DNA of 35,674 nt. It comes from a virus. The stretch spans positions 1 to 35,674 of IMG/VR virus record IMGVR_UViG_3300032087_001469; one strand, written 5' to 3'. Positions 11,029 to 23,368 of this stretch are shown in pieces. The stretch's first letter is position 1, and each line of letters starts with the position of its first letter. The notes under the pieces are model-generated. The model had not been told where the DNA came from and ran no database searches. It worked only from the letters and a program-made list of their open reading frames with translations. A program made the translations under genes and the position numbers.

Positions 11029-11034
11029 ATAAAA

Positions 11035-11469: not shown

Positions 11470-11627
11470 CCGTGCTTGGTCTTAACCTTGAATGGCATCT
11501 TTAACGATGCTCCTTTATGTGGGACAAACTTCCCTTTGTGCGGCATTAGATAGTATCGACCCCCTTCAGACATCCAGTGATATCCAGAGGGAGCTTCTAC
11601 CATTACCTTTTTACGTGATGCTTTCAT
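11466..11627 (-). CDS. Small basic virion-associated protein
   Basis: This 53-residue ORF starts at 11627 in a TAATG overlap with the preceding gene's stop. It reads MKASRKKVMVEAPSGYHWMS, then GGRYYLMPHKGKFVPHKGASLKM and ends in KTKHG. The pattern of a short Lys-rich protein with AP.GYHWM and PHKGAS recurs next to packaging genes in Bacteroidota phages. Its role is unknown. The tight coupling to the EF-hand protein supports it as a real gene. Confidence 0.6.
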   Translation of the reverse strand: MKASRKKVMVEAPSGYHWMSEGGRYYLMPHKGKFVPHKGASLKMPFKVKTKHG

Positions 11628-12052
11628 TACTTCTTGCGTAGCATTTTAAAGTCAGCACCAGTAATCTTACCATCCTTGTTAGCGTCCAACTTAACCTGTC
11701 CACCTTTCAAGTATTTCTTGAGTTTACCACCGTAGCCGTATTCCATCTTGCCACCCTTACCATACACAGGCTGATCCTTAGCAGGGAGTTTCGTACCTAC
11801 ATAACGGTAGTTAGGCTTCATATTAGAAGATACTTGCTTAGTCACTTTAGCCATATTAGCATACTCCTTACGCTTCTTAGCAGACAGTGGCATACCCTTA
11901 GGTCCAACACCCGTCTCCGCATACTTAGCAAACTTGTTAGCAAAGTTCGCAGCACCCTCAAACTTCTTCTTGAACTCCTTGTCCGCCATCTCCTTAGTGA
12001 CAGTCTTACCTCTGAGCTTGCCGCCCTCCTTATAAACCTTCTTCGCCTTCAT
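11627..12052 (-). CDS. Basic protein with a C-terminal EF-hand/dockerin-like loop
   Basis: This 141-residue protein is Lys/Gly-rich throughout (KEGGKLRGKTVTKEM, YGYGGKLKKYLKGG). Residues 123-134 read DANKDGKITGAD, which fits a canonical calcium-binding loop DxNxDGxIxxxD as found in EF-hands and dockerins, here as a single copy at the C-terminus. The start overlaps the upstream stop in a TAATG junction. Similar basic Gly-rich proteins are carried by Bacteroidota phages near packaging genes and are thought to be virion components. The calcium site is read from sequence; the role is inferred. Confidence 0.65.
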   Translation of the reverse strand: MKAKKVYKEGGKLRGKTVTKEMADKEFKKKFEGAANFANKFAKYAETGVGPKGMPLSAKKRKEYANMAKVTKQVSSNMKPNYRYVGTKLPAKDQPVYGKGGKMEYGYGGKLKKYLKGGQVKLDANKDGKITGADFKMLRKK

Positions 12053-12279
12053 TATTTCTTAGCTCTGTTTCTTTTTGCTGTTATAAATCTCTTCTCATCG
12101 TGGTCGTAATCCATACCATCACCATTGCCGTACCTTCCAGCCTTCCTACGCATCTTATTCAAGAAAGCACGATACTTCTTACGCTCCTGGGTAGAGTGGT
12201 AAGCTGTGTCGTACTCCTTCTTCTTGGCTCTCGCCTTAGGATTCTTTGCGTAATACTTAGCTGTCTTTCCTTTTGACAC
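12052..12279 (-). CDS. Basic protein with YHxT..R..YR / GNGDG..YDHD pattern
   Basis: This 75-residue protein uses GTG 12279 (MSKGKTAKYYAKNPKARAKK). The frame is open up to a TTG at 12363, but that extension overlaps a better small ORF in another frame and reads unlike a natural N-terminus. The body YDTAYHSTQERKKYRAFLNK and RRKAGRYGNGDGMDYDHDE matches a small family common in phages beside virion genes. The DYDHDE segment is reminiscent of a degenerate HNH/DxSH metal site. Very Lys/Arg-rich, so DNA binding is plausible. It is coupled to the EF-hand gene by a TAATG junction. Confidence 0.6.
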   Translation of the reverse strand: MSKGKTAKYYAKNPKARAKKKEYDTAYHSTQERKKYRAFLNKMRRKAGRYGNGDGMDYDHDEKRFITAKRNRAKK

Positions 12280-12412
12280 AATCTGTGGCTTTATCGCAGT
12301 AACACACCTCGTCAGATCCACACGCAAACTCGTGGGGAACGTAACTGTCTGAACTACTGCCAATTACAAAAGCAAAGATAACAATTAATAAGAGAACAAT
12401 TAATAAAGCCAT
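12257..12412 (-). CDS. Small single-span membrane protein, Cys-rich tail (overlapping frame)
   Basis: ATG 12412 opens a 51-codon frame: MALLIVLLLIVIFAFVIG (one membrane helix or uncleaved signal) followed by an exterior tail with four Cys (FACGSDEVCYCDKATDC) and a basic end VKRKDS. It is the first ORF after the strong leftward promoter at 12545-12515 and overlaps the start of the next gene by 23 bases. Its frame differs from the long TTG-started ORF over the same DNA. An ATG start, sensible hydrophobicity and the promoter favour this frame. Function unknown; a membrane-located late or regulatory peptide is possible. Confidence 0.5.
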   Translation of the reverse strand: MALLIVLLLIVIFAFVIGSSSDSYVPHEFACGSDEVCYCDKATDCVKRKDS

Positions 12413-12478
12413 AGCGGTTTCAACAAGACATAATACACCGCCCTTACAGCGTAAATAATAATATCGTCCAGAGTGCTT

Positions 12479-12502
12479 GGCGGTGTTCCTAAAAGAACCG
12501 CC
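12479..12502 (-). promoter_or_regulatory. Leader hairpin of the late transcript
   Basis: In the minus-strand RNA, GGCGGT (12502-12497) pairs with ACCGCC (12484-12479), with additional internal UUC/GAA pairing possible. It would form within about 10 bases of the predicted late start site. There is no U-tract, so it is not a terminator. It may stabilise the 5' end or act as an attenuator or binding site. Confidence 0.4.
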
Positions 12503-12514
12503 TTAAGGACTCAG

Positions 12515-12545
12515 CAAAGTTACAGCTTTTTTTTAATAAAGTCAA
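12515..12545 (-). promoter_or_regulatory. Leftward late promoter TTGAC-N18-TAACTTTG
   Basis: Minus-strand TTG (12545-12543) is followed after 20 bases, including an A8 tract, by TAACTTTG (12522-12515), an exact Bacteroidota -33/-7 pair. The start site would be near 12508, leaving a leader of about 95 bases before ATG 12412. It is the only full-match promoter upstream of the leftward late genes. Confidence 0.65.
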
Positions 12546-12812
12546 TAGGTATAAAATACTAGTGTAGCGCATTTAAGTAACAGATTTTAACAGAAATGTT
12601 TAGGGTGGGGATTATATATGTATATGCACGTGTACGCTTAGATTCCGAAACGGAATCTCAGACCCCACCCCCTCTAGTACTAAAGTACTAGTACAGAACT
12701 TTTAGGTATTTATACTCACTAACCGCCTCGTAAGCATATACACCTAGGCATAAGCGCCTAACACGAGACCTCAGCCTCTAGGTATAAATACTCAGACTAG
12801 GTATAAACACCT
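12546..12812. repeat. Five iteron-like repeats, consensus TAGGTATAAAnACyC
   Basis: Related 15-mers begin at 12546 (TAGGTATAAAATACT), 12703 (TAGGTATTTATACTC), 12745 (TAGGCATAAGCGCCT), 12779 (TAGGTATAAATACTC) and 12798 (TAGGTATAAACACCT). All are in the same orientation, with start-to-start spacings of 157, 42, 34 and 19. Several are near-palindromic (AGGTATTTATACT). They may bind a replication initiator or a repressor. Confidence 0.55.
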
Positions 12813-13035
12813 ACTGGATTCTTTGTCTCTCTAAAGAGACACGGGTCAATAACCCCCCACTAAACTACGTTTACCTTTGGCTTCACGTCCTCGGGTACAC
12901 ACCCCTCACGTCCAGGTTAAGCGCATACGTGCGATCTAATGGGCTTTCTTACCCTACGGGTAAACTTTTTATTAGGAAAAATAATTGCATTTGTAACCTC
13001 CCCTAAAGGGGAGAATAATCTACCCCTTCGGGGTA
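12641..13035. repeat. Cluster of six perfect hairpins in the intergenic region
   Basis: Stems (5' arm, loop): 12641 GATTCCG/AAA, 12674 CTAGTAC/TAAA, 12824 TGTCTCT/CTAA, 12949 TTACCC/TAC, 12998 CTCCCC/TAAA, 13021 TACCCC/TTC. The last forms an extra-stable C(UUCG)G tetraloop in RNA. None is followed by a T-tract, so they are not ordinary terminators. Two have a TAAA loop and a third contains it across the apex. Arms differ completely, so shape and not sequence seems to be conserved. Confidence 0.65.
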
Positions 13036-13040
13036 AAAAC

Positions 13041-13064
13041 TTGACAAGGGGTTTATTATATAAG
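13041..13064 (+). promoter_or_regulatory. Possible early promoter (TTGACA ... TATATAAG)
   Basis: AAAAACTTGACAA at 13036-13048 is nearly repeated before the gene at 15407. TATATAAG (13057-13064) follows, but only 13 bases separate it from the TTG, too short for a normal sigma factor. It directly precedes the first early gene; it could be a phage-specific promoter or a binding site. Confidence 0.3.
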
Positions 13065-13108
13065 GGCAGCTCGGCAATGAAGTCGGGTTGAACTAAATCC
13101 TACGTATT

Positions 13109-13579
13109 ATGGCTAAAGCCACAAAGAAGAACCCTACGGGGCTTACTAGCAAAGCTAGTGTAATCAGCAAAGTGTATAATGACGAAGTCATAGAGGCTGT
13201 CAAGTCTTTTCCTTTCAAGGCAAAGAGAAGCTATGGCACTTGTGCCATCAGTGGTAAGCAAATCTCCAAGGGAGATGGTTGTGTGATGTCCATTCTATCG
13301 AATGGTGAGAGAATGGTAACCTTACAGTCTACGACTGTAGCGAAGGGTCGTAAAGCCAACAAGGTTGGCACTACAAAGACAAAGTCTAAGCCTGTAGCTA
13401 AGGCTACAGCTAAGAAGGTTGTTAAGAAGCCTACGGCTAAGAAGGAGGCTACCTATAGCGAAGCTATTGTGAAGGCTGTGTTTGCTTTAGCAACTGCTAA
13501 GACTGACGCTGCTAAGTACAAGGTACTTATGTCGTTGAACATTGAGGAAGTTTCTCAAGTGCTAGCACTTACCAAATAA
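13109..13579 (+). CDS. Basic Ala/Lys-rich protein, first early gene
   Basis: This 156-residue protein has a compact N-terminal half (about 1-85) with YGTCAISGKQISKGDGCVMS, which carries two Cys and could be a small zinc or beta domain. A linker TKSKPVAKATAKKVVKKPTAKK (about 91-112) reads like histone H1 or HU tails, and a helical end follows. DNA or RNA binding is plausible but not proven. It is the first gene of the early unit. Its coding DNA holds at least seven perfect 6-7 bp stems with 2-4 nt loops (13145, 13233, 13323, 13355, 13392, 13513, 13557), about ten times the chance expectation. Confidence 0.65.
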   Translation: MAKATKKNPTGLTSKASVISKVYNDEVIEAVKSFPFKAKRSYGTCAISGKQISKGDGCVMSILSNGERMVTLQSTTVAKGRKANKVGTTKTKSKPVAKATAKKVVKKPTAKKEATYSEAIVKAVFALATAKTDAAKYKVLMSLNIEEVSQVLALTK

Positions 13580-13587
13580 TCTTGACT

Positions 13588-13767
13588 ATGAAATACTTTG
13601 TAGCTGTGATAGCTTTGCTTATCACAATTTACCTACCGATACACTTTGTGTATGCTCTGAATGGAGACACTCCTTTTGTCCTATTCCCATTACATTTTGT
13701 AATGACTGCTTTTTCAATTGTGTTTGCAATGGATTACATCTCGAGAAACAAAGAAGTAAAATCATAG
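13588..13767 (+). CDS. Small two-helix membrane protein
   Basis: This 59-residue protein reads MKYFVAVIALLITIYLPIHFVYALN, then a loop GDTPF, then a second hydrophobic stretch VLFPLHFVMTAFSIVFAMDY, and a charged cytoplasmic end ISRNKEVKS. ATG 13588 is preferred over an upstream in-frame TTG at 13582; it is preceded by GACT, the recurring start context of this block. Function unknown; an inner-membrane early protein. Confidence 0.6.
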   Translation: MKYFVAVIALLITIYLPIHFVYALNGDTPFVLFPLHFVMTAFSIVFAMDYISRNKEVKS

Positions 13768-13770
13768 ACT

Positions 13771-14175
13771 ATGACAATCAAAGACCAGGCGCTGACCCAG
13801 CTATCGCTGGGCAGTATGGCTCAGAGTGAGCTACAAGCATTTATCCTTTTTGCCCAAGGCAAGAAGGAGAGGAAACATAGAGGCTACTACTGCGATGCTT
13901 TTGCTTCTTGGGAGTCCGAAGGACTCGTAGAGAGAAGAGACCGTAAGATACATTTGACCAAGCTAGGTACTTTGTACCTACAAGACCCAATGCTGTTCAA
14001 GTGTATACGAAGGTACTACAAGAAACAAATCAGAGATTTGAGAGAGCAAAGAGCTGACTTGCATAGGACTTTGTACTATGCTAAGAAGGAAATTCAAGAC
14101 TTGTCTTGGGATTGGGATAGACTCAGTTCTTGTGGACAAGAAACACTAACCAAAATTACCAAAATTCTAGACTAA
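13771..14175 (+). CDS. Possible winged-helix early protein
   Basis: This 134-residue protein has an N-terminal half with helices and a wing-like segment, ASWESEGLVERRDRKIHLTKLGTLYL (about 47-72), which reads like a winged helix-turn-helix. The C-terminal half (about 80-134) is a charged helix or coiled coil (YYKKQIRDLREQRADLHRTL). The start ATG 13771 follows the previous stop by 3 bases with the GACTATG context. Perfect stems lie in its coding DNA at 13796, 13912 and 13964. A DNA-binding role is likely from the pattern but unproven. Confidence 0.5.
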   Translation: MTIKDQALTQLSLGSMAQSELQAFILFAQGKKERKHRGYYCDAFASWESEGLVERRDRKIHLTKLGTLYLQDPMLFKCIRRYYKKQIRDLREQRADLHRTLYYAKKEIQDLSWDWDRLSSCGQETLTKITKILD

Positions 14176-14177
14176 CT

Positions 14178-14363
14178 ATGAAGGAGTATATGTTCACCTT
14201 TGAAGAAGGTGGTTGGAATACTGTTTGGGCTAAAACCAAAAGTAGTGCAATTAAAATTGCAGTTGAGAAGTACAAAGATTCAAAGCATTTGAATCCACGT
14301 ATTGATTCGTTTCACGTAGCGACCAAGGAAGGTCTTGACGCTGCTATGTCTCTTTTTTACTAA
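14178..14363 (+). CDS. Unknown small protein
   Basis: This 61-residue protein, MKEYMFTFEEGGWNTVWAKTK then SAIKIAVEKYKDS, has a beta-beta-alpha start resembling small ferredoxin-like phage proteins that carry the pattern W.W.....EA...A....G. ATG 14178 lies 2 bases after the previous stop in the ACTATG context. No motif identifies a function. Confidence 0.55.
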   Translation: MKEYMFTFEEGGWNTVWAKTKSSAIKIAVEKYKDSKHLNPRIDSFHVATKEGLDAAMSLFY

Positions 14364-14384
14364 TCTAAATCTTAGACTAAAGCT

Positions 14385-14651
14385 ATGGGAGCTGAATTAA
14401 ACTACAGAATTGTAGAAGCCAACTCATCAAGAGAGGCTTATGACAAAGCATATCAAGATGCTGTGGAATGGAGTGGCAATGACCCTTACAATGGGGACTT
14501 CAACACTTGTGTTGAGTATTTTGATGCTAAAGCACTTAAGGGACTTGATACATTCAAGTCTTGGGTAGAGGAATATGGTGAAAAGAGAGTAGCCTACACT
14601 TATCCTCTGGATAAGGGTAAATATGCAATAATGGCTTGGTGTGCCTGTTAA
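14385..14651 (+). CDS. Unknown small protein
   Basis: This 88-residue protein has MGAELNYRIVEANSSREAYDKAYQDA, then an acidic middle, then EEYGEKRVAYTYPLDKGKYA and a C-terminal WCAC. The pattern (EA...AY..A....G....GD..) is seen in small phage proteins of unknown role. Its 267 bases contain three perfect 7-bp stems (14500, 14542, 14599) where about 0.1 is expected, a strong example of the hairpin bias of this region. Confidence 0.55.
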   Translation: MGAELNYRIVEANSSREAYDKAYQDAVEWSGNDPYNGDFNTCVEYFDAKALKGLDTFKSWVEEYGEKRVAYTYPLDKGKYAIMAWCAC

Positions 14652-14661
14652 AACAAAGACT

Positions 14662-14841
14662 ATGAAAAAGAGAACTGAAGTTGCTGAGTGGTACTTGATG
14701 AATGTGTACCCTTACATAACAAACAAAGACGCTGAAATAGAGTGGCTAGTATCACACTTGAAGGACAATGCTTTTCAAGCTATTGAAGGTATGTATGACG
14801 AACAAATGTCTAACCTAGAAGCTGAAGGCTTCTTTAAGTAA
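14662..14841 (+). CDS. Unknown small helical protein
   Basis: This 59-residue protein (MKKRTEVAEWYLMNVYPYIT, then DAEIEWLVSHLKDNAF) is acidic and helical with no recognised motif. ATG 14662 sits in an exact CAAAGACTATGAAA block that is repeated before the genes at 14850 and 16312. A perfect stem AGAAGC (14817-14833) lies near its 3' end. Confidence 0.55.
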   Translation: MKKRTEVAEWYLMNVYPYITNKDAEIEWLVSHLKDNAFQAIEGMYDEQMSNLEAEGFFK

Positions 14842-14849
14842 CAAAGACT

Positions 14850-15305
14850 ATGAAAAAGAAAGTATTTATCGGTGAGACGAAGCTCACCTATCACAAGGCT
14901 AAGAAAGTCGAGAAGAAACAAATCAGACAAAGTAGAACTGCGTTCAAGATCTTGAGAGAGCTGATGGGGGACTTAGTGTACCATCAAGAGGCTTATGCTG
15001 TCCTCTACCTCAACCAAGCTAACGAAGTTATGTGGGCTGAAATCCTTCACCTTGGAGGCTCAAAGTCTTGTATTCAAGACGTGAAAGCTATAGTCCGTAG
15101 GGCTTTGGTTGGTGGCTGTCAGAGTATGATTGTAGGACACAATCACCCTAGTGGTAACCTTACTCCTAGCGAAGCTGACAAGCGTGCGACAAAGTCTCTG
15201 AAGGAGGCACTGAACTTGTTTGAGATACCCTTGCACGACCATATCATAGTGGGGGACGAGGAGTTCTTCAGCTTCAGCGACCACGGTCTAAGCTGTATAT
15301 CATAA
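14850..15305 (+). CDS. radC: RadC-like JAB/MPN domain protein
   Basis: At 151 residues this covers only the C-terminal JAB1/MPN metalloprotease-like domain of the RadC (DUF2466) family and lacks the N-terminal helix-hairpin-helix. The metal motif is intact: Glu47 in HQEAYAVLYLN, HNHPSGNLTPSEAD (97-110, with His97, His99 and Asp110), and HDHIIVG near 129-135. RadC proteins occur on many phages and mobile elements; a DNA-repair or anti-defence role has been suggested but the biochemical activity is unsettled. ATG 14850 uses the repeated CAAAGACTATG context. Stems at 14871 and 15065. Strong family assignment. Confidence 0.85.
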   Translation: MKKKVFIGETKLTYHKAKKVEKKQIRQSRTAFKILRELMGDLVYHQEAYAVLYLNQANEVMWAEILHLGGSKSCIQDVKAIVRRALVGGCQSMIVGHNHPSGNLTPSEADKRATKSLKEALNLFEIPLHDHIIVGDEEFFSFSDHGLSCIS

Positions 15306-15352
15306 TAGGGAAACTTACTACTACGTAGTAAAAAAACCATTAGAAAAAAAAC

Positions 15353-15384
15353 TTGACAAACGGCTCTCCGATATGTTATATTGG
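15353..15384 (+). promoter_or_regulatory. Promoter TTGACA-N17-TTATAT / TTG-N21-TATATTGG
   Basis: TTGACA (15353-15358) and TTATAT (15376-15381) are 17 bases apart, a sigma-70-like layout. The same DNA also reads TTG-N21-TATATTGG, one base off the Bacteroidota -7 box. It lies about 23 bases before ATG 15407, after a 100-base gap, so it probably starts a new early transcript. A palindrome TTACTAC/TAC/GTAGTAA stands upstream near 15314-15330. Confidence 0.55.
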
Positions 15385-15406
15385 GTGGCAACCAATCTTC
15401 AATCCA

Positions 15407-16114
15407 ATGAAAAATCGAGTAGTATGGCTTGAGAACGACAATGTATTTGTTGTCAAGCTAGGAAAAACAAGTAACAAGAAAATCTCTGACGGCAAAGCTC
15501 TGGTCCAGACGTACACGTTTAGCCACGAGCAATGGCTGTTGGCGACCACAAGCAAAGGCTTTGGTATGAAAGCGTTCTTCGCTTTGGACGGCACGAACTG
15601 CCTTGACTGCCCCTTCAGTGGTAACCAAGGCAAGGGAGGCTGTTACACTCACAAGTTTAATCAGTATGTAGGATTTCTGTCTATGCTTCGTAGTATCAAA
15701 GCCTCAGACTTGACTCCTCTCGATAGGACAAAGGAGGCTGACGTAGTGGAGATGTCGTTTGGCAAGTATGTTCGCTTCGGCACTTATGGTGAGCCATCTC
15801 TGATGCCAAAGCATCTTGTCGAGACTATGGCTAATGTGTCAAAGTCTTGGACGGGGTATACCCACCAATGGCAGAAGGCTTGGGCTAGGGACTACGGCAA
15901 GTGGTTTATGGCTTCGGCACACAATCAGACCGAGGCTAATCAAGCCTCTGAGATTGCTTACCGTTCCTTCATTGCTTCACAGAGTGGTGATGAGAATGCT
16001 GTGGTATGCCCTGCTTCTAATGAAGCGGGCTTCAAGTCCAACTGTGCAAGCTGTGGCTTGTGTAGTGGTATGCTTGGCAAGGGCAAGAAAGATATCAAGA
16101 TACTTGAACACTGA
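15407..16114 (+). CDS. Conserved Cys-cluster phage protein (DUF7227-like), function unknown
   Basis: This 235-residue protein uses ATG 15407 (MKNRVVW); an upstream TTG at 15353 would put the promoter inside the gene. Cysteines cluster twice: CLDCPFSGNQGKGGCYTH near 83-100, and CASCGLCSG near the C-terminus. Between them, VRFGTYGEPSLMP and KSWTGYTHQWQ are hallmark strings of a phage-only family of unknown function seen in diverse tailed phages. The Cys pattern suggests zinc or an iron-sulfur cluster. Family recognition is from memory; no activity is assigned. A coding hairpin AAAGCG lies at 15569. Confidence 0.6.
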   Translation: MKNRVVWLENDNVFVVKLGKTSNKKISDGKALVQTYTFSHEQWLLATTSKGFGMKAFFALDGTNCLDCPFSGNQGKGGCYTHKFNQYVGFLSMLRSIKASDLTPLDRTKEADVVEMSFGKYVRFGTYGEPSLMPKHLVETMANVSKSWTGYTHQWQKAWARDYGKWFMASAHNQTEANQASEIAYRSFIASQSGDENAVVCPASNEAGFKSNCASCGLCSGMLGKGKKDIKILEH

Positions 16115-16118
16115 TGCT

Positions 16119-16301
16119 ATGTATAGATATATATTTTACACCCAGGAAAGCCTTGATGCGCCACGAATGATACGAGCCGTCAAGCATTGCAAAAGACCTA
16201 GAGCAACCAAGATATACAAGCACTTGGAACGAATGTTCCATAGCGGTGAGGTTGCTGTATTTGGCTATAGTATAGAAACGGATTTTCAAACATTCACTTA
16301 A
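16119..16301 (+). CDS. Unknown small basic protein
   Basis: This 60-residue protein reads MYRYIFYTQESLDAPRMIRA then KHCKRPRATKIYKHLERMFHSG and ends VFGYSIETDFQTFT. It has a basic helical centre and no known motif. ATG 16119 lies 4 bases after the stop of the upstream gene and has GCTATG before it. Confidence 0.5.
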   Translation: MYRYIFYTQESLDAPRMIRAVKHCKRPRATKIYKHLERMFHSGEVAVFGYSIETDFQTFT

Positions 16302-16311
16302 TTCAAAGACT

Positions 16312-16515
16312 ATGAAACAGCACGGTACTGTACACGTAGACTGTACGCTAACCTTCAGCGGTAAGGTTGATGTTGTGCTATGGGAAGATATGTCCATAGC
16401 TGAGATTGTCCACGATATCATTCATTGTGGAGACTACGACTACGAAGTCGTAAAAGGAAATATGAAAGTCGAGGACGTTGAGGACTATGACGATTGGGAA
16501 GATTACACAGAGTAA
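16312..16515 (+). CDS. Unknown small acidic protein
   Basis: In this 67-residue protein the first half (VHVDCTLTFSGKVDVVLWEDMS) is beta-rich and the end is very acidic (VEDVEDYDDWEDYTE). The charge pattern recalls DNA mimics but no family is recognised. The start has the third exact copy of CAAAGACTATGAAA, and a 7-bp stem TACGACT lies at 16435-16452. Confidence 0.5.
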   Translation: MKQHGTVHVDCTLTFSGKVDVVLWEDMSIAEIVHDIIHCGDYDYEVVKGNMKVEDVEDYDDWEDYTE

Positions 16516-16525
16516 AAACAAAGCT

Positions 16526-16780
16526 ATGACTTTAGAACAGATCAAAGACAAGCTACAAGATAGCGGTCAAATCTTCGGTGCTGAGTATGTAAAAGCATCG
16601 GGAGAAGCAACACGAATCAACGGAAGGTTCGGAGTAACGAAGTACCTAAAGGGTACAGGTAAGGCATCAGACAAAGTCTGGTGCGTATGGGACAACAATC
16701 GTAGACGCTATACAAGTCTTAGACCAGAGCGTATACAAAGTATCACACTGAGTGGTATCACTCACAAAGTTAGAAAGTAG
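16526..16780 (+). CDS. Unknown small basic protein
   Basis: This 84-residue protein reads MTLEQIKDKLQDSGQIFGAEYVKASG, then FGVTKYLKGTGKASDKVWCVWDNNRRRYTSLRP. It resembles a short nucleic-acid-binding alpha/beta domain in composition only. ATG 16526 is preceded by ACAAAGCT, a variant of the repeated start context. Confidence 0.5.
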   Translation: MTLEQIKDKLQDSGQIFGAEYVKASGEATRINGRFGVTKYLKGTGKASDKVWCVWDNNRRRYTSLRPERIQSITLSGITHKVRK

Positions 16781-16781
16781 T

Positions 16782-16925
16782 ATGAAAACCTTCTTGTGCA
16801 TTGAACACGGTGAGAAATTCACTATGAAAGCAAAGGATTTAGAGACTGCAGTCCACGAAGCTATGGAAGCTTGGGGTGCTGAAGTTATTTGTGAACTTAG
16901 AGATGGCGTGCCTTATGGACTATAA
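16782..16925 (+). CDS. Unknown short protein
   Basis: A 47-codon ORF from ATG 16782 (MKTFLCIEHGEKFTMKAKDL, then EAMEAWGAEVICEL) begins one base after the previous stop and overlaps the next start by 11 bases. The layout (beta, then helix with EAW.AEV) resembles other small proteins of this block. Confidence 0.5.
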   Translation: MKTFLCIEHGEKFTMKAKDLETAVHEAMEAWGAEVICELRDGVPYGL

Positions 16926-17157
16926 AGACTTTGATAAAGCTATATCGTTTGGGTTCAACTACCCTCATCTATTTTGGCTAGAGGTTTGGAAAGACCAACC
17001 ACTGTTGGCTGACCACTTGCATAGCAAGTTCCAAGAAATCTTCAAGAAGAAAGGTAACGCTAATGTTACATTCTTCTACTTTTGGAATGAGCTAGACAAT
17101 CAGAACCGCAAGGTTCTCGTTGATTGGATTAACGAAAACTTTGAGTGGAACCGATGA
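16915..17157 (+). CDS. Unknown small protein upstream of the first methyltransferase
   Basis: This 80-residue protein, rich in aromatic residues (FGFNYPHLFWLEVWKDQ, FFYFWNELDNQNRK), is probably all helical. ATG 16915 is used; its TGA stop overlaps the ATG of the methyltransferase gene (ATGA), so the two are translated in step. A coding hairpin AGAACC/GCAA is at 17102. Confidence 0.5.
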   Translation: MDYKDFDKAISFGFNYPHLFWLEVWKDQPLLADHLHSKFQEIFKKKGNANVTFFYFWNELDNQNRKVLVDWINENFEWNR

Positions 17158-17828
17158 AAGTATTAGTAGCCTGCGAAGAAAGCCAGGCGATTACCAAAGC
17201 TTTTCGTAAGCGTGGTGTTGAGGCTTATAGCTGTGATATTCTTCCCCCTTCGGGGGGACACCCCGAGTGGCATATACAAGGGGATGCTGTTGCTACTGCC
17301 TATAGTGGTGATTGGGATTTGATGATTGCCCACCCTCCGTGTACTTACTTGGCAGTAAGTGGTGCGAGGTGGTTGTATAACAAGGACGGCTCACGTAATG
17401 AGGAGCGGTGGAAAAACCAAGCAGAAGCGTTGGACTTTGTCAAGACATTGATGGATGCTCCGATAGAACACATAGCCATCGAGAATCCTGTCAGCGTGAT
17501 AAGTTCTAACATACGCAAACCAGATCAGATTGTGCATCCGTGGATGTTTGGGGACAAGGCTAGCAAGGCTACTTGTTTGTGGCTTAAAAACCTAGACCCA
17601 ATACAACCAACGGATGTTGTGGAGAAAGGCGAATACTTTGAATGGGTAGACAAGAATGGTAAGACCAAGCGACAACCTATGTGGTACTACCAAGCTTTGA
17701 GTAAAGCAAAGACACCCGAGCAAAGAAGAACCTTGAGAAGTAAAACCTTTGACGGTATGGCGAATGCCATAGCAGAACAATTCATTAACCAAGTAAAAAA
17801 TAAATACAATGCCGAATCACGTTTATAA
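17154..17828 (+). CDS. Dcm-like DNA cytosine-C5 methyltransferase homolog 1
   Basis: In this 224-residue protein MKVLVACEESQAITKAFRKRG (1-21) is an altered SAM-binding motif I. AHPPCTYLAVSGARW (59-73) holds motif IV with catalytic Cys63, and IENPVS (109-114) is motif VI. It is shorter than bacterial Dcm and has no clear target-recognition domain, as usual for the phage-borne family. It may methylate or otherwise modify phage DNA to avoid host restriction. The ATGA overlap with the upstream gene fixes the start; the 3' end overlaps the next gene by 20 bases. It carries a C(UUCG)G-type hairpin at 17244 and stem TATGGC at 17756. Confidence 0.75.
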   Translation: MKVLVACEESQAITKAFRKRGVEAYSCDILPPSGGHPEWHIQGDAVATAYSGDWDLMIAHPPCTYLAVSGARWLYNKDGSRNEERWKNQAEALDFVKTLMDAPIEHIAIENPVSVISSNIRKPDQIVHPWMFGDKASKATCLWLKNLDPIQPTDVVEKGEYFEWVDKNGKTKRQPMWYYQALSKAKTPEQRRTLRSKTFDGMANAIAEQFINQVKNKYNAESRL

Positions 17829-18417
17829 CAGATTGCAATTTGATGCAAAGCATTTCACGACCATAGAGTCTGTGATTGACACACACGGATGTTTCTGTGA
17901 GTGGTTGAACCCTACACCTTTAGAACTAAAGGAGAGACAACCTTTTACCGAAGGTGATGACAATACTGCTGAGCTTGTCGAGAAGTACGGCTTAGATAAT
18001 TGGTACGATTGGAACGTACACAATTGGGGAACCAAGTGGGGTATGTATCATGCCGAGGTGTATAACGATGGCAAGACTTGTGAGGTGAGGTATACCACTG
18101 CCTGGTCTCCACTATCGGTGGAGATTCTAGAGAAGCTTCACGAAATGTTCGGCATCACCTACTACGAGTGGGAAGAAGAGCAAGGCTATGGTCAAGCCTT
18201 CGATGTAACAGACAAGGGTGAGATTGTCTTGTCTTCTGAATGGGACATCCCCGAGTTCAGCGATACCGTTTGGGTAGACGAAGATGGTAGTTACGTATGC
18301 CGTCTTGAGGAAGACCACACCACCCCCTACATAGATTGTAAGGCAGGTGAGTTCTTCTATAACTACAACCTGCTAGAACCTTTTGATGGTGACATCAGCG
18401 AACTTAAAGAGCAGTAA
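17809..18417 (+). CDS. YubB/DUF1281-like ferredoxin-fold protein
   Basis: This 202-residue protein has an N-terminus MPNHVYNRLQFDA and the stretch CEWLNPTPLELKERQ, then DNWYDWNVHNWGTKWG, a signature of the DUF1281 (YubB) ferredoxin-like proteins of plasmids and phages, whose molecular role is unknown. The rest is acidic with WEEEQGYGQAFDVTDKGEI. ATG 17809 overlaps the methyltransferase end. Two perfect 7-bp stems (17917, 18106) lie in the coding DNA. Confidence 0.65.
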   Translation: MPNHVYNRLQFDAKHFTTIESVIDTHGCFCEWLNPTPLELKERQPFTEGDDNTAELVEKYGLDNWYDWNVHNWGTKWGMYHAEVYNDGKTCEVRYTTAWSPLSVEILEKLHEMFGITYYEWEEEQGYGQAFDVTDKGEIVLSSEWDIPEFSDTVWVDEDGSYVCRLEEDHTTPYIDCKAGEFFYNYNLLEPFDGDISELKEQ

Positions 18418-18418
18418 T

Positions 18419-18700
18419 ATGGACGGTATCGGTTTACACTTACAGTCAAAGACTGCCTACCCCTTTCAAGAGGGAGACACTTACTACACGCTGGAAAGTA
18501 TTAACCAGGCAGAGATCAGACTCTTGATAAAAAATGGAGAGAATCCATATGTGTTTGATGTAGTAGAATCTGTATGGGATGAAACTAGTGAAGAACTTCA
18601 CGATGAGAATCCTAATCGAAAATACTTCTCTACTAGAGAAGAGGCTGAGGAGAATAACATCTCTTATATTGAATATGTAGAAACATATTTACCATTTTAA
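18419..18700 (+). CDS. Unknown acidic protein
   Basis: This 93-residue protein reads MDGIGLHLQSKTAYPFQEGDTYYTLE, then VVESVWDETSEELHDENPNRKYFSTREEAEEN. The pattern of a short beta domain that starts after EGDxYYT, ending in S..EA, recurs in small phage proteins. It begins one base after the preceding stop. A perfect 7-bp stem CTTCTCT is at 18625-18641. Confidence 0.5.
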   Translation: MDGIGLHLQSKTAYPFQEGDTYYTLESINQAEIRLLIKNGENPYVFDVVESVWDETSEELHDENPNRKYFSTREEAEENNISYIEYVETYLPF

Positions 18701-18711
18701 AAAGTAATACA

Positions 18712-18882
18712 ATGAAAGAAAAGTTTGAAGCGTACCTAGCGGTACAAGAGATGGGTGCTTACAATATGTTAGACCCTAGAGCAAGAGGACTCGCTCAAGA
18801 GTTCTGTGACGAGCCGATCACCAGAGGTGATTGGATTAACATCATTCAAAATTACCAACAACTCAAAGAAAAGTATTCGTGA
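18712..18882 (+). CDS. Small phage protein (VQ.MG..NM type)
   Basis: A 56-residue ORF from ATG 18712 (MKEKFEAYLAVQEMGAYNML, then FCDEPITRGDWINIIQNY). Short proteins with Y...Q.SG.TNM occur widely in phage early regions, function unknown. Its stop TGA overlaps the GTG start of the second methyltransferase, so it is a coupled upstream ORF. Stem ATCACC/AGA is at 18817. Confidence 0.55.
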   Translation: MKEKFEAYLAVQEMGAYNMLDPRARGLAQEFCDEPITRGDWINIIQNYQQLKEKYS

Positions 18883-19523
18883 AAGTATTAGAACTATTTG
18901 CAGGTAGCCGTAGTATCGGCACTGCAGCAGAATCATTGGGACACACTGTGTTCTCATCAGACATCAACTCATTTGACGGTATCGACTACCCTGTAGATAT
19001 CCTTGACTTTGACGTGACGAAAGTTCCTTTCGTTCCAGATATGATATGGGCTTCACCGCCTTGTACTACCTACAGCATAGCTGCTATCAGCCATCACCGT
19101 GATGGTCAGAAGCCACGAACAAAGTTCGCTAAGAAGTCTGACGAGATGATTGCCAAGGTACACGAGATTATCAAATACTTCCAAGACAAGAATCCTAATC
19201 TTGTATACTACATCGAGAACCCTCGAGGTATGCTACGCAAGATGAACTTTATGTCTGTGCATCCTATCCGTCATACTGTAACGTACTGTCAGTACGGTGA
19301 TAGCCGTATGAAACCAACAGACATATGGACGAACAACGAAGTGTGGAGTCCTCGTCCTATGTGTAAGAACGGTAGCCCTTGCCATACTCCTGCGCCACGT
19401 GGATCACGCACGGGTACTCAAGGTCTTAAGGGCAACTACGAACGTAGTAAGATACCTACTGAGCTTTGTCTTGAAGTGATAGCTGATGCTGAGAACTATG
19501 TTAGTACCTCGATTTTTATTTAG
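18879..19523 (+). CDS. Dcm-like DNA cytosine-C5 methyltransferase 2
   Basis: In this 214-residue protein, MKVLELFAGSRSIGTAAESLG is a well-kept motif I (FAGxxSxG). ASPPCTTYSIAA (58-69) is motif IV with catalytic Cys62, YYIENPRGM (110-118) is motif VI, and YCQYGDSRMKPTDIWTN matches motif VIII (QyG..R.K.T). It belongs to the same phage family as the gene at 17154 but keeps motif I better. The start is GTG 18879, in a GTGA overlap with the upstream stop. It likely methylates cytosine in phage DNA as protection against restriction. A long hairpin covers its stop codon. CCATCA/CCG stem at 19091. Confidence 0.82.
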   Translation: MKVLELFAGSRSIGTAAESLGHTVFSSDINSFDGIDYPVDILDFDVTKVPFVPDMIWASPPCTTYSIAAISHHRDGQKPRTKFAKKSDEMIAKVHEIIKYFQDKNPNLVYYIENPRGMLRKMNFMSVHPIRHTVTYCQYGDSRMKPTDIWTNNEVWSPRPMCKNGSPCHTPAPRGSRTGTQGLKGNYERSKIPTELCLEVIADAENYVSTSIFI

Positions 19524-19589
19524 GTGGTTGGTTAGGTTGCCCTGGTTTTCTGTTGTCTATGTAGACCGCAGAACCAGGGTTCTCACCTA
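19521..19589 (+). promoter_or_regulatory. Long stem-loop over the stop of methyltransferase 2
   Basis: CCCTGGT (19540-19546) pairs with ACCAGGG (19573-19579), with further pairs TCTG/CAGA and GTCT/AGAC inside. TAGGTG (19521-19526) can close the base with CACCTA (19584-19589). There is no T-tract. It may protect the 3' end of the upstream message or control the gene at 19620. Confidence 0.5.
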
Positions 19590-19619
19590 CAAGAATGTTA
19601 AACTTTTAATTCGTAAACG

Positions 19620-19775
19620 ATGGAGTACAATACTGCTCTTATGGCTTTTGCAAGACACCTTTCATCTACTATGGGCTTAGAGCCTAGAGATGCCTACAGG
19701 CTTGCGATTAGGTATACAGAAATCTATGCCTCTAAGATTAAATACTCATACGAGGGTGAGCCTCCCCCTTATTGA
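19620..19775 (+). CDS. Unknown short protein
   Basis: A 51-codon ORF from ATG 19620 (MEYNTALMAFARHLSSTMGL, then EPRDAYRLAIRYTEIYASKI) is helical and ends YEGEPPPY. It lies between the stem-loop at 19521 and a hairpin TATCCC..GGGATA near 19794-19811. Amphipathic, good codon texture, no known family. Confidence 0.5.
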   Translation: MEYNTALMAFARHLSSTMGLEPRDAYRLAIRYTEIYASKIKYSYEGEPPPY

Positions 19776-19854
19776 TAATACTATATAAATCTTTATCCCC
19801 CTAAAGGGATAATGATTTATAATAGATAGATAATTATATAATAAACACAACTCT

Positions 19855-20271
19855 ATGACCTTGAAAAAACAACTGTTCAAAACTTATCAACAGATTCTAA
19901 AGAAGCTGTTTCCTAATTACATTACTCCTTCTGAACGTGTGTTCAGATTCTACAAGCAGCACGATGGTACTTGGTATGTTGATTTGCCCGAATGGAAACT
20001 GCCTCGTAGACATCTTCGTATGGTAGACGGTGCGGACGACTTCTTGGAGTCTTTCCGCCCCGCCAATGCTAATCAAGTATACCTCAAGGTATCTCTCAAA
20101 GAATTTCAAGATGCTTTGAGTATCCAAAAGCTTGAAGATGATCCGTATGGAGACGGTGCTACGTATTGGTACGAAACACCTCAAGGACCAGAAACGATGT
20201 GGCTTTGCCACGTTACCGATTGGTACTATGGCTATATGCCCGACAGATTTTTTGTCAAACAGCTTGTTTAA
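19855..20271 (+). CDS. DUF6717-like protein of unknown function
   Basis: This 138-residue protein has a centre reading FRFYKQHDGTWYVDLPEWKL then LRMVDGADDFLESF and later TYWYETPQGPETMWLCHVT. The string FYK..DG.WYVDLPEW...L.MV.GAD is typical of a small family (I recall DUF6717) in Bacteroidota genomes and phages with no known function. ATG 19855 in CTCTATG context. Coding stem TCTGAAC/GTGT at 19930. Confidence 0.6.
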   Translation: MTLKKQLFKTYQQILKKLFPNYITPSERVFRFYKQHDGTWYVDLPEWKLPRRHLRMVDGADDFLESFRPANANQVYLKVSLKEFQDALSIQKLEDDPYGDGATYWYETPQGPETMWLCHVTDWYYGYMPDRFFVKQLV

Positions 20272-20313
20272 TTGCTGTTGAATTCATACATTGCAAACAC
20301 TTAATTCAATTCT

Positions 20314-20880
20314 ATGACCAATTTAAACACAGCACTTATCAAAGTGCAGTCAGAACTCAAGGCTCCAAAAGGACAGTACAACAGCTTCGGTAAGTATTCT
20401 TACCGTAGTGCTGAAGATATATTAGAAGCTGTCAAGCCTTTGCTATCAAAGAACGGTTTATCTATGACTATCTCCGACCAGGTTATTGAGGTTGGTGGTC
20501 TAACATTTATCAATGCCTCAGTAAAGGTGAGCGATGGAACAGATAGCGTAACAGCTTCAGCTCAAGCAGGTATCGACCCTAATCGTAAGGGTATGGATAT
20601 AGCTCAGTCGTTCGGTAGTTCTAGCTCATATGCTAGAAAGTATGCGCTGAATGGTATGTTCTTGATTGACGATACCAAAGATGCTGATGCTACAAACACG
20701 CACGGTCACACTCAGACCTCAGCTCCTAAGCAGTCGTCTGGACCTAATGCTTTCCAAAAGTCTATAGACTATCTAAAGGCTTCAAAGAATAAGTCGCAGG
20801 CGTATGAGCAAATCCTTACGAAGTACGGTGAATCATTCTCTGATAAACAAAAAGAAGCACTAAAGAAATTTACTAAGTAA
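20314..20880 (+). CDS. erf: ERF-family single-strand annealing recombinase
   Basis: In this 188-residue protein, SELKAPKGQYNSFGKYSYRSAEDILEAVKPLL (about 14-45) is the classic ERF opening. It is followed by GLSMTI and the core GIDPNRKGMDIAQSFGSSSSYARKYALNGMFLIDD (about 89-123), where SYARKYAL..LF.I.D is the family hallmark. ERF proteins anneal complementary single strands during phage recombination and genome circularisation. The C-terminal third is a linker plus helical tail. A TAATG junction couples it to the exonuclease gene, forming a two-component recombination system. Coding stems at 20332 and 20388. Confidence 0.88.
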   Translation: MTNLNTALIKVQSELKAPKGQYNSFGKYSYRSAEDILEAVKPLLSKNGLSMTISDQVIEVGGLTFINASVKVSDGTDSVTASAQAGIDPNRKGMDIAQSFGSSSSYARKYALNGMFLIDDTKDADATNTHGHTQTSAPKQSSGPNAFQKSIDYLKASKNKSQAYEQILTKYGESFSDKQKEALKKFTK

Positions 20881-21707
20881 TGGACTTCGCAATCAAGCTA
20901 CAAGAGGTTACAGGTAAAGGATACTTGTCTTACTCGTCAATTAAATTTGCAGCCAACGGCTCAAAGAGTCAAGATATGAAGCTGTTTGAGCTTTATATGA
21001 AGGGGTTGCTGAAACGAGAAAGCGCTGCCTTTACCTTCGGTAGCTTGTATGATACGTTGCTCCTCGAGCCAGAGATGGTGACAGACAGGTTCTATGTGAT
21101 AGATGAAACAAACATCTTGCAGGATCTGAAGGGCAAGTATGCGAACCCTAGAAGTTCTAAGATTTACAAAGAGTGGAAATCTGCTGAGGCTATCAAAGCA
21201 GAGGAAAACAATCTGACCCTCGTGACTGAGGACGATATGGACAAGGCTGTTGCAATGATTAACAGACTTGACGCTTCCGAGGTCTACGATACTGAGCTTG
21301 AAATGACCAAGCCTGTCCGCTACTATTTAGATGGTGAACACCAATTTGAAATCAACGATTGGATTCAAGAGATTCCTGTTCGTGGTTTTCTTGATAACTT
21401 GAACAAAGATGTGCCATTCATATCTGACAGCAAGTCTACCAAGTCTATCCACGGATTTAGATACGATGTCAATAACTACTGTTATGACATCCAAGCGTAT
21501 ATCTACACGGAAGTCTTGGGCATCTCTGATTTCTATTGGGTAGTTCAAGAGAAGTCCAGTCCATATCTGTGTGCTGTCTTTAAAGCATCTGAATATACTA
21601 TCTCTCAAGGGAGAGATAAGTTTTGGTCTGCCATTGATAACATCAATCTGTGGCTAGACAACCCAGAGAATGAGACCGACTCATTCGCTTTGTTTAATTT
21701 AATCTAA
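20880..21707 (+). CDS. PD-(D/E)XK exonuclease, partner of ERF
   Basis: This 275-residue protein resembles the RecB/lambda-exo-like DUF3799 group. LSYSSIKFAANGSKSQ and FGSLYDTLLLEPE (53-65) are its signature, and the nuclease core follows: RGFLD (168-172, Asp172), ISDSKST (181-187, Asp183-x-Lys185) and YDIQAYIY (Gln205). It would resect double-strand ends to give the 3' tails used by ERF. The start shares a base with the ERF stop. An 8-bp perfect stem TATCTCTC/AAGG lies at 21599-21618, the longest found. Confidence 0.82.
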   Translation: MDFAIKLQEVTGKGYLSYSSIKFAANGSKSQDMKLFELYMKGLLKRESAAFTFGSLYDTLLLEPEMVTDRFYVIDETNILQDLKGKYANPRSSKIYKEWKSAEAIKAEENNLTLVTEDDMDKAVAMINRLDASEVYDTELEMTKPVRYYLDGEHQFEINDWIQEIPVRGFLDNLNKDVPFISDSKSTKSIHGFRYDVNNYCYDIQAYIYTEVLGISDFYWVVQEKSSPYLCAVFKASEYTISQGRDKFWSAIDNINLWLDNPENETDSFALFNLI

Positions 21708-21712
21708 GACAA

Positions 21713-21991
21713 ATGGCTCAAGAAAATCAAAGCCCACTTGTAGGTTACTGTGAGACTCCACGTTTGGAATCTCGCTTTTCATTATCGCAGTCTGAACTGC
21801 AAGAACTAACTCGTTACCTTACTGAAGGTAAGAACGGTAAAGAAGGAAGAGTATACCTTACTCTTGTTTCTGGTATGAGTAAAGCTGGCAAGGCTTACAA
21901 TATGGTTAAGGTGTACGACCCTAATGCTAATACTTCGGGCAACACACACAAACCTGCAGCTAAGAATGAGACAGCCGATCTCCCGTTCTAG
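21713..21991 (+). CDS. Small protein with SSB-like C-terminal tail
   Basis: This 92-residue protein has a beta-rich centre (GRVYLTLVSGMSKAGKAYNMVKVYDP), then a flexible Asn/Thr/Pro linker, then the C-terminal NETADLPF. The last residues mimic the acidic tip DDIPF with which single-strand binding proteins recruit partner enzymes. Following ERF and exonuclease directly, it may be a minimal SSB or a recombination accessory factor. The OB fold is not certain from sequence. Perfect 7-bp stem TTACCTT/ACTG at 21814. Confidence 0.55.
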   Translation: MAQENQSPLVGYCETPRLESRFSLSQSELQELTRYLTEGKNGKEGRVYLTLVSGMSKAGKAYNMVKVYDPNANTSGNTHKPAAKNETADLPF

Positions 21992-22001
21992 TGAATTTCA
22001 G

Positions 22002-22424
22002 ATGAGAATGTCTGAAAAATGGAGTAACGCTATTGCAGCGTATATGGCATTGGATTGGGGACTTCGTTTGGAGTCCCTCAATCCTCCATATTCTACGTTT
22101 ACTTCAACAAAGACCAATGGCAAGGTGACCTTTGAGGTTTACTTTACCAATATGTTTCAAGCCAACCAAGAATACAAAGTATCAACAGAGTACATTAACA
22201 CCAACAACCTGGGCTTATCAGACTATGTTGTGCTATGTATTTGGAATAAGACACAGGACAACTGTGTTGTTTTGAAAACAGAAGATGCTGTGGAGCTTAT
22301 GCAAAACAATAGTGACGCATTTGCTCTTGTGGATTTAGTACCCAAGATTAAACGCAAATTTGAGATAGGTGTCAACAAAATGGACAATGCCGATATACCT
22401 AATGAGGCTGTTGGTAGCCTATAA
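22002..22424 (+). CDS. Unknown protein
   Basis: This 140-residue protein reads SEKWSNAIAAYMALDWGLRLE, then FEVYFTNMFQANQEYKVSTEYI, NLGLSDYVVLCIWN and KTEDAVELMQNN. It is mixed alpha/beta with no motif I recognise. ATG 22002 or 22008 could be the start; both follow the previous stop closely. It overlaps the next gene by 23 bases. Confidence 0.5.
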   Translation: MRMSEKWSNAIAAYMALDWGLRLESLNPPYSTFTSTKTNGKVTFEVYFTNMFQANQEYKVSTEYINTNNLGLSDYVVLCIWNKTQDNCVVLKTEDAVELMQNNSDAFALVDLVPKIKRKFEIGVNKMDNADIPNEAVGSL

Positions 22425-22614
22425 GAAGGGTAAGAAATCGTACCAGAAAGAAGTCGAGGTGGTCTCCAAGGGAGAGACAGTCGCTCAAATCAATAAGCGA
22501 TCCACCACCATAGAAAGAATCAAGCAGGAGATATACGGCAAGAACAAACGCCAGGATATACTTGTGCTTAAAATCAAAGAGAAAAAACTAATTAGCTATG
22601 GCATCAAGGATTAA
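22402..22614 (+). CDS. Unknown small basic protein
   Basis: This 70-residue protein from ATG 22402 reads MRLLVAYKKGKKSYQKEVEVVS, then EIYGKNKRQDILVLKIKEK: two beta hairpins around a basic helix, with no family named. It overlaps its neighbours on both sides (23 and 17 bases), consistent with coupled translation. Confidence 0.5.
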   Translation: MRLLVAYKKGKKSYQKEVEVVSKGETVAQINKRSTTIERIKQEIYGKNKRQDILVLKIKEKKLISYGIKD

Positions 22615-22804
22615 AAACTACTTGAGAAAGAGAAAACACGTTTCATATACATCAAAGTATATATGCGATTTACGATGGGAGATTATCAATACGGTAACCT
22701 CATCAGCACATACAGGGTTTCATAATGGGGTGGACAAACACCTAGAGAATCTAGGTCTACTCATCCGAAAGTATGAACGCAGAAAAAGACTTTTAAAATT
22801 TTAA
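22598..22804 (+). CDS. Unknown small basic protein
   Basis: This 68-residue, strongly basic protein begins MASRIKNYLRKRKHVSYTSK and ends IRKYERRKRLLKF. It is the last gene before the structured RNA at 22805, so that RNA may be its processed 3' untranslated region. ATG has TTAGCT before it. Confidence 0.5.
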   Translation: MASRIKNYLRKRKHVSYTSKYICDLRWEIINTVTSSAHTGFHNGVDKHLENLGLLIRKYERRKRLLKF

Positions 22805-22990
22805 TCTAGTCATATAACCAGCTCTCGGATGTCTTCGGGATTGAAGAGCTACCTGCCATTTGAATTGAATAAAGGTTAAATCTGAGACTAGAGCCTCGCG
22901 GAGAGGGGCAATCATTGCGGACAAGGTAGTTAAAGACATTGGGGGAGGATTTCGGCAATACTTATTGACCTCCCCCTCTTATTTTTTTTT
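22805..22990 (+). ncRNA. Structured RNA with possible pseudoknot, ending in a terminator
   Basis: This 200-base gap holds nested complementary segments: TCTAGTC (22805-22811) with GACTAGA (22886-22892), AGCTCT (22820) with AGAGCT (22845-22850), CCTC (22894) with GAGG (22903), and GCAA (22908) with TTGC (22915). CTACCT (22849-22854), inside the first helix, pairs with AGGTAG (22924-22929) outside it, which would make a pseudoknot. A strong terminator follows. No ORF fits. It could be an independent sRNA or a processed 3' UTR; I do not recognise an Rfam family. Confidence 0.5.
22941..22990 (+). terminator. Strong intrinsic terminator after the structured RNA
   Basis: GGGGGAGG (22941-22948) pairs perfectly with CCTCCCCC (22969-22976), with a secondary CAATA/TATTG helix in the loop, and TCTTATTTTTTTTT follows. 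It ends rightward transcripts between the recombination and replication sub-blocks. Confidence 0.85.
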
Positions 22991-23004
22991 GAAAACATTT
23001 TATT

Positions 23005-23211: not shown

Positions 23212-23368
23212 CGCATACTCTAAAGCCAAGCAAATGCTTACAAAGTATTCCGAGTCGGATGCTATATGTCAAGCGACACAATGTCTAGTGTTAGCACCAG
23301 ATCACAAGAAAGATTATTGGTGGGATGTCATAGAAAAAATAAAGTACAATGGATCAAGACCTGCTTAG
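23204..23368 (+). CDS. Unknown short protein
   Basis: A 54-codon ORF from ATG 23204 (MISAYSKAKQMLTKYSESDA, then HKKDYWWDVIEKIKYNG) overlaps the previous gene by 8 bases and the next by 20. It is a helical, Trp-containing protein of a type common beside DnaA-like phage genes; function unknown. Confidence 0.5.
   Translation: MISAYSKAKQMLTKYSESDAICQATQCLVLAPDHKKDYWWDVIEKIKYNGSRPA

Follow-up and report, generated by a model that had tools for sequence, protein, structure and literature searches.

Short perfect hairpins with strictly Watson–Crick pairing crowd the early genes of a tailed phage downstream of a conserved element

The early genes of this phage are crowded with short inverted repeats whose two arms are perfectly complementary, which raises the question of whether these hairpins reflect chance, the folding of messenger RNA or a property of the DNA itself. 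We analysed the window, that is, the whole stretch of 35,674 nt, for perfect stems of at least 6 bp with loops of 2–6 nt. Between positions 12641 and 21831 there are 68 such stems (7.4 per kb, against approximately 1.2 per kb expected from dinucleotide shuffling), and the same scan found 11 in positions 1–12641 (0.87 per kb). Under a codon-shuffle null that preserves each protein and its codon use, the genes from 13109 to 21991 would carry 12.3 stems (sd 3.0), with a maximum of 20 in 100 shuffles; they carry 59, including 27 of at least 7 bp where 3.8 are expected. The excess is limited to stems of 6–7 bp with loops of 2–5 nt, mainly 3–4 nt. The richness in perfect stems that an earlier note had reported is therefore confirmed, at approximately five times the codon null, and is stronger than first described. 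In the gene at 13109 the note had counted seven stems, four of them of 7 bp; the four stand, within a total of ten stems of at least 6 bp, and the three 7-bp stems that it gave for the gene at 14385 were counted again.

By the same codon shuffles, neither the distal early genes (22000–28933; 10 versus 8.2 expected) nor the late genes (23 versus 19) show an excess. The hairpins are thus specific to the early side, as had been claimed, with the late genes at background rather than free of hairpins, as the late stretches sampled in the note had seemed. The possibility that the array stems from chance, an assembly artefact, ordinary terminators or a mobile repeat is refuted, and we consider its probability negligible: both shuffling nulls are exceeded, the array recurs in independent contigs, the arms are unrelated in sequence, and most hairpins lie inside ORFs without a T-tract, as first observed. 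Nothing of weight speaks for it, as the hairpins themselves give rise to the 17 terminator-like sites found (7.6 expected).

The array does not form the uniform early-half block first described, but begins just past position 12607 and then decays, with 17, 11, 5, 4, 7, 5, 7, 4 and 5 stems in the successive kilobases from 13 to 21 kb, a gradient that falls over approximately 9 kb. Its start is abrupt: around GGGGATTATATA, which occurs once in the window, there are no hairpins in the preceding 3 kb and 6 and 8 in the two following 500-base bins, the first of them directly after the first block of a conserved element. Hairpins are as frequent in coding DNA (6.06 per kb) as outside it (6.18 per kb), and the codon phase of the hairpins matches the null, so that their placement is blind to frame. 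The features of the region are as follows.

12607–12672, plus strand: conserved element, GGGGATTATATA ... ACCGAAACGG-like core ... ACCCCACCCCC, aligned across relatives
12640–12658, 12674–12691 and 12824–12841, unstranded: non-coding leader hairpins from the stem scan
12949–12963, 12998–13013 and 13021–13035, unstranded: further non-coding leader hairpins from the stem scan
13041–13064, plus strand: promoter-like TTGACA-N12-TATAAG, conserved in the window, L009, L190, L191 and L193
13109–13579, plus strand: first early gene, 156 aa, with ten stems of at least 6 bp
13145–13159, unstranded: hairpin ACTAGC-AAA-GCTAGT in the first early gene
13262–13276, unstranded: hairpin ATCTCC-AAG-GGAGAT in the first early gene
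13580–15305, plus strand: second dense part by stem counts, from small early genes to a RadC-like gene
14850–15305: the RadC-like gene that closes the second dense part
15306–21991, plus strand: thinning part of the array, 3–7 stems per kb, spanning methyltransferase-like, Erf and exonuclease genes
20332–20405, unstranded: two hairpins in the Erf gene, GCACTT-ATCA-AAGTGC and CGGTAAG-TATT-CTTACCG

The element at 12607 may serve as an origin, an entry site or a promoter of the early genes. The cumulative GC skew of the window reaches its minimum at 12–13 kb, where gene orientation also switches; no DnaA-box match was found near the element, and a search for iterons gave weak CTAGGTATAAA repeats only.

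Comparison with relatives bears out the claim that the fold, rather than the sequence of the arms, is conserved. When the hairpins of the first early gene are compared with those of homologues, 120 of 190 comparisons retain a perfect stem, against 2.4 when synonymous codons are resampled, a null that ignores shared ancestry. Retention is bimodal, with all six pairs kept in 133 cases and five of six in 23. Thirteen pairs in this gene are altered on both sides, compared with 5.3 after shuffling; none of 500 shuffles reached 13, and slid alignments gave at most 5. The codon null, late-gene density and conservation of pairing have all been checked, and none overturns the observation. By hand reading, transversions account for roughly half of the different compensatory replacements, and the covariation extends to paired amino-acid changes: AAAAGT-TTC-ACTTTT (encoding KSFTF) corresponds to AAAGTC-TTT-GACTTT (KVFDF), with three pairs exchanged, and the hairpin at 13145 reads AGTAGC-AAG-GCTACT in L191, where SSKAT replaces TSKAS. 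The stem at 13262 is the same in five of five genomes, the loop being AAA outside the window genome, and both Erf-gene hairpins are preserved in L009, GCACTT-ATCA-AAGTGC with a different loop. Four-fold sites are conserved at 0.87 in arms, 0.92 in loops and 0.61 in spacers when the labels carry some ascertainment bias, and at 0.75–0.85 in arms versus 0.61–0.68 in spacers when they are taken from a genome outside the comparison; the relation reverses if the window serves as reference, the arm sites then being the less conserved ones among the other genomes (0.52 versus 0.76).

Intragenic covariation is usually taken as a sign of RNA structure, and the earlier note had suggested that early mRNAs are selected for local structure. 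Such structure might stabilize the mRNA, control its translation or shield it from RNases or RNA-targeting defence. In favour of this reading, the array sits on the transcribed, early side and thins out with distance from where it begins. However, genuine RNA stems tolerate G-U pairs, and the pairing here is strictly Watson–Crick and nearly all-or-none. In the dense parts of nine genomes, with overlaps excluded (an earlier two-genome version was ambiguous), perfect hairpins number 192 against 14.8 expected, a 13-fold excess, whereas hairpins with one G-T (23 versus 22.8) are at chance; those with one A-C number 30 against 26.2, and all one-mismatch classes together show no excess (136 versus 147). 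Among 343 inner-six pairs in homologues, 335 are Watson–Crick, one is G-U, none is A-C and seven are other; the single mismatches within conserved hairpins comprise 6 G-U, 1 A-C and 16 other, and those few G-U pairs are what an RNA stem can claim. Because G-U is not tolerated, what is maintained is complementarity at the level of DNA, not the folding of RNA. Measured against codon shuffles, RNA folding z-scores run from -0.6 to -5.0 in the early genes, a range that includes the late-gene values (terminase -2.0, portal -3.5). Rfam gave no match, and 6-bp stems are as readily AT-rich as GC-rich. Selected mRNA structure in the coding sequences of RNA viruses and structured ORFs likewise shows conserved intra-ORF pairing and compensatory changes, but G-U is tolerated there and stands at chance level in the phage array. 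Selection on mRNA structure is therefore strongly disfavoured after the G-U test, and we regard it as unlikely.

Of the three meanings proposed in the earlier note, DNA hairpins and quasi-palindrome template switching both remain viable. Our data are best explained by a model, to which we assign slightly less than an even chance, where short DNA-strand hairpins are preserved because their segment is exposed as a single strand beside an origin- or entry-like element. The 12607 element would act as an origin, nick site or DNA-entry site, and the genome on one side of it would turn single-stranded, most frequently in its vicinity; 6-bp hairpins could fold stably on the exposed strand, and their folding might be selected weakly and additively, hairpin by hairpin. 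Possible benefits include protection of the strand, less strand exchange, or structures shown to a replication or recombination protein, and templated arm-to-arm correction may help to hold the arms identical. In a more far-reaching version, which we hold slightly less likely, the early genes of a tailed phage clade would carry a DNA-level layer of dozens of sequence-independent mini-hairpins, all Watson–Crick and with pyrimidine–purine closing pairs, in a segment that is handled as single-stranded from the conserved element during infection, and selection on them would be strong enough to bias codon choice and even amino acids. The all-or-none pairing could also be obtained from functionless templated conversion. 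Such conversion, in which a polymerase folds back near the element, perhaps triggered by replication or a transcription–replication conflict, and copies one arm from the other while concerted evolution perfects and keeps the stems, is the main rival and a serious possibility, although we would not expect it to be the answer. It would account for the lack of decayed hairpins above chance, the bimodal retention, the frame-blind and equal densities, a stem GC content (0.43) near that of the genome (0.41) and unlike chance stems (0.32), the multi-pair, amino-acid-changing exchanges such as KSFTF to KVFDF, and the patchiness of the array among relatives. There are also precedents (PMC6649704, PMC8794818). 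Nematomorph mitochondrial genes contain many perfect inverted repeats, up to 284 bp, of unknown mechanism, for which hairpin-templated conversion with concerted evolution has been proposed (PMC6649704). As here, they lie in functional genes, with coding repeats in the phage exceeding the codon-preserving null; their identity is binary, perfect or absent, with gains and losses between species (PMC6649704), and imperfect repeats are not in excess in the phage either. The nematomorph arms are long and are spread over the mitochondrial genes with no anchoring site, whereas the phage array is anchored at 12607 and has arms of 6–8 bp, loops of 3–4 nt, positional conservation and covariation. Quasi-palindrome correction likewise yields perfect stems, multi-base compensatory changes in one event, of the kind seen here with perfect complementarity preserved, and Watson–Crick pairs only (PMC8794818, PMC7202029, PMC3820800); in yeast, such mutations depend on the direction of transcription and replication (PMC3820800). 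Template-switch mutations are, however, known as sporadic events or hotspots, and in the literature we found no described case of one genome segment saturated with dozens of conserved template-switch hairpins. Against conversion alone stand the constancy of hairpin positions across deep divergence, stems that halt at 6–8 bp, and the higher conservation of silent sites in arms and loops than in spacers, which conversion alone does not predict but which is subject to the ascertainment bias and to the reversal with the window as reference.

The remaining proposal, extruded hairpins serving a phage (virion) polymerase or primase as in N4, is very improbable, despite a resemblance in geometry and closing pair. 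At its early end, N4 has three vRNAP promoters, which are hairpins with conserved bases, a 5–7 bp stem, a 3-nt loop and a 5′C..G3′ closing pair (PMC4496689). The array falls in the same size class: 79% of stems combine a loop of 3–4 nt with a pyrimidine–purine closing pair, approximately 95% of triloops in the dense parts are closed in this way, mostly by C-G, and 46 of 127 triloops are GNA or the complementary TNC. Our scan also picks out N4-like 7-bp triloop hairpins at the left end of N4, and a relative (G001) encodes a late protein of 2958 aa, nearly 3000 aa. In contrast to the few N4 sites with conserved loop and stem bases, the array comprises tens of hairpins with unrelated arms, on both strands, inside genes and in non-coding DNA. 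A polymerase was sought by sequence in the giant late proteins: searches of Pfam, PHROGs, PDB sequences and simple motifs recognized no polymerase family or motif in the G001 protein or at 30275–35557 of the window.

The strictly Watson–Crick nature of this intragenic covariation points to DNA rather than RNA. Either phage replication or entry makes use of DNA folding in a new way, or the coding sequence is subject to hairpin-templated conversion. The latter would, to our knowledge, be the densest case of such conversion shaping coding sequence. Either reading makes it testable how perfect stems arise and persist, and the tolerance of G-U versus A-C is a simple control for other covariation studies in phages.

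The tailed phages that carry the array form a small marine clade, and their relatives point to Bacteroidota hosts. Four of them (L009, L190, L191 and L193) have the first early gene in common with the window and peak at the same element, with an identical boundary and no hairpins in the 500 bases upstream. The protein encoded by this gene has a Cys-containing N-terminal part and a Lys-rich tail; it matched no family, and no homologue was found in the genome contigs or phage collection searched. The gene was considered as an obligatory partner of the array and rejected, as L226, L259, L239 and L223 peak at the element with a different first gene. The array is not essential, because L206, L243, L244 and L248 have the element or a close variant and no array in the sequence available. 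There is no hairpin peak in other relatives with similar terminases, in the cultured relatives elemovirus and Cellulophaga phi18:3 or in the uncultured Manatee Spring podovirus, and T7 is at background density. An apparent peak in L096/L099 was rejected as an AT dinucleotide run. A comparison of gene content between array-bearing and array-free relatives is uninformative, because the contigs are fragments.

In the leader, alignment shows that four relatives carry homologous hairpins with exchanged stems. For the hairpins at 12998–13035, 60 of 60 cells are paired across genomes, a value equalled by 16 of 500 shuffles. The TTGACA-N12-TATAAG motif at 13041 is a putative promoter, judged from its sequence, and two conserved hairpins precede it.

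The window, a single IMG/VR virus record 35,674 bases long, is a tailed phage with terminase and portal genes, and its principal features are as follows.

3950-6412, minus strand: portal
6438-8567, minus strand: terminase large subunit
from 13109, plus strand: rightward early operon with RadC-like, methyltransferase-like, Erf, exonuclease and primase-helicase genes

The host is likely a member of the Bacteroidota, because cultured relatives grow on Flavobacterium, Cellulophaga and Maribacter, and both of the GTDB contigs that carry a related terminase come from Bacteroidota MAGs. The 185-aa protein encoded at 23629-24186 has a DnaA C-terminal DNA-binding domain and may be a phage initiator; near 12607, no canonical DnaA box was found. 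The giant late protein (30275-35557, truncated; 2958 aa in a relative, L279:76-8949) gave only a weak match, to LPD38.

The earlier note's proposal that the early genes are saturated with perfect hairpins, and the late genes are not, held up under codon shuffles that kept each protein: genes 13109-21991 contain 59 stems against 12.3 expected, whereas stem number in the distal early and late genes equals the null. The 13-14 kb bin alone contains 17 stems of 6 bp or more, where dinucleotide shuffles predict 1.6. Stem density is 6.06 per kb in coding and 6.18 per kb in non-coding sequence, and the codon phase of the hairpins is as in the null. Pooled over the window and the four relatives sharing its first early gene (L009 and three further genomes found by searching with that gene), the excess lies mostly in 6-7 bp stems whose loops are 3-4 nt long (85 against 9.8, 63 against 9.6, 35 against 2.6 and 30 against 2.3 expected); loops of 9-10 nt show none. 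About 95% of triloops have C-G or T-A as their closing pair, and the remaining stem pairs have no orientation bias and a GC content close to the genome value.

The best kilobase holds 15-22 hairpins in all five carriers, against a maximum of 9 at loci lacking the first gene (184 loci, 2.36 Mb). The relatives compared are all metagenome contigs, most of them fragments. Among further related genomes gathered by terminase search, L226, L259, L239/L240 and L223 peak at 9-14 per kb in the same place with a different first gene, and L206, L215, L243 and L245 have no peak though their terminases are comparable. The array is therefore tied to its place rather than to gene 13109, and has been gained or lost within the clade. 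It is anchored at the conserved GGGGATTATATA element: the five carriers have no hairpins in the 500 bases upstream and 6-8 in the 500 bases downstream, declining over several kb thereafter. In L226, L259, L239 and L223, three hairpins lie in the upstream 500 bases and the peak is again downstream. The element, whose role is inferred, is followed by a ACCGAAACGG-like core and a C-rich block, with TTGACA-N12-TATAAG some 430 bases downstream. The intervening leader is non-coding and hairpin-rich, and its stems are swapped among genomes (at one place TTACCC/GGGTAA, TTACTAC/GTAGTAA and TAACCC/GGGTTA).

In RNA, G-U would be the easiest step between pairs, and by a simple argument we estimate that, at the frequencies usual for RNA, G-U hairpins would exceed chance by tens or more. 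Across the dense parts of nine genomes there are 192 perfect 6-bp hairpins against 14.8 expected, but 23 with one internal G-T against 22.8, and 30 with one A-C against 26.2. RNA folding energies likewise do not separate early from late genes. The pairing signal is thus DNA-like, and the suggestion of selected early mRNA structure was not sustained.

Conservation of pairing in relatives, also anticipated, was confirmed. In the first-gene codon alignment, where window pairs share 49-53% protein identity, about fourteen hairpins occupy a matching place in at least three genomes. Hairpins stayed perfect in 120 of 190 comparisons, against 2.4 with synonymous codons resampled, a null that ignores shared ancestry. 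A formal count found 13 pairs altered on both sides, where shuffling predicts 5.3 and no shuffle out of 500 reached 13; sliding the partners gave 5 at most. Some exchanges carry paired amino-acid changes (TSKAS to SSKAT; KSFTF to KVFDF).

Such pairing could be kept by selection on DNA hairpins, a reading we hold tentatively and rank slightly ahead of its rival. In its favour, arms and loops conserve their silent sites better than spacers do, although the assignment of sites to arms carries some ascertainment bias, and with the window as reference arm sites are the less conserved. The rival, template-switch conversion that makes and keeps perfect stems, has a smaller but appreciable chance of being correct: it accords with the multi-base exchanges, the absence of decayed hairpins, the equal density of coding and non-coding DNA and the patchiness of the array among relatives; by itself it does not predict the silent-site pattern. 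It was put forward for nematomorph mitochondria (PMC6649704) and for RNA stems generally (PMC8794818). In yeast, template-switch events vary with transcription and replication direction (PMC3820800), so a one-sided gradient could result. Selection and conversion may also act together.

Several individual loci deserve mention. In L191 (10255-10330), extra Ala/Lys codons of the first gene build new hairpins (TACTGC-TAAA-GCAGTA, AACTAC-TAAA-GTAGTT). The closely related L239 and L240 differ in all three loop bases of one first-gene hairpin with the same stem (CTCAGC-CCT-GCTGAG, CTCAGC-GAA-GCTGAG). More distant relatives by exonuclease, L018 (8197-8850) and L020 (8205-8855), have a milder early-region excess, with compensatory exchanges (TCCAAG-AGTA-CTTGGA for TTCCAGG-AGTA-CCTGGAA; GCAATT-GG-AATTGC for GCAACT-AG-AGTTGC). 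Outside the main array, the window carries overlapping nested palindromes, GCAATATCGCATATTGCGATATGCAATA (24578-24605), and, between convergent operons, a 10-bp hairpin, GAAAGGGGGT-TATTT-ACCCCCTTTC (29016-29040), probably a two-way terminator. At the left end of phage N4 (L195, 1-6000), 7-bp triloop stems are in small excess (6 against 0.3 expected), including AAGAAGC-TCC-GCTTCTT (557) and AAGCTGC-TCC-GCAGCTT (4546), the size class of its known virion polymerase promoters.
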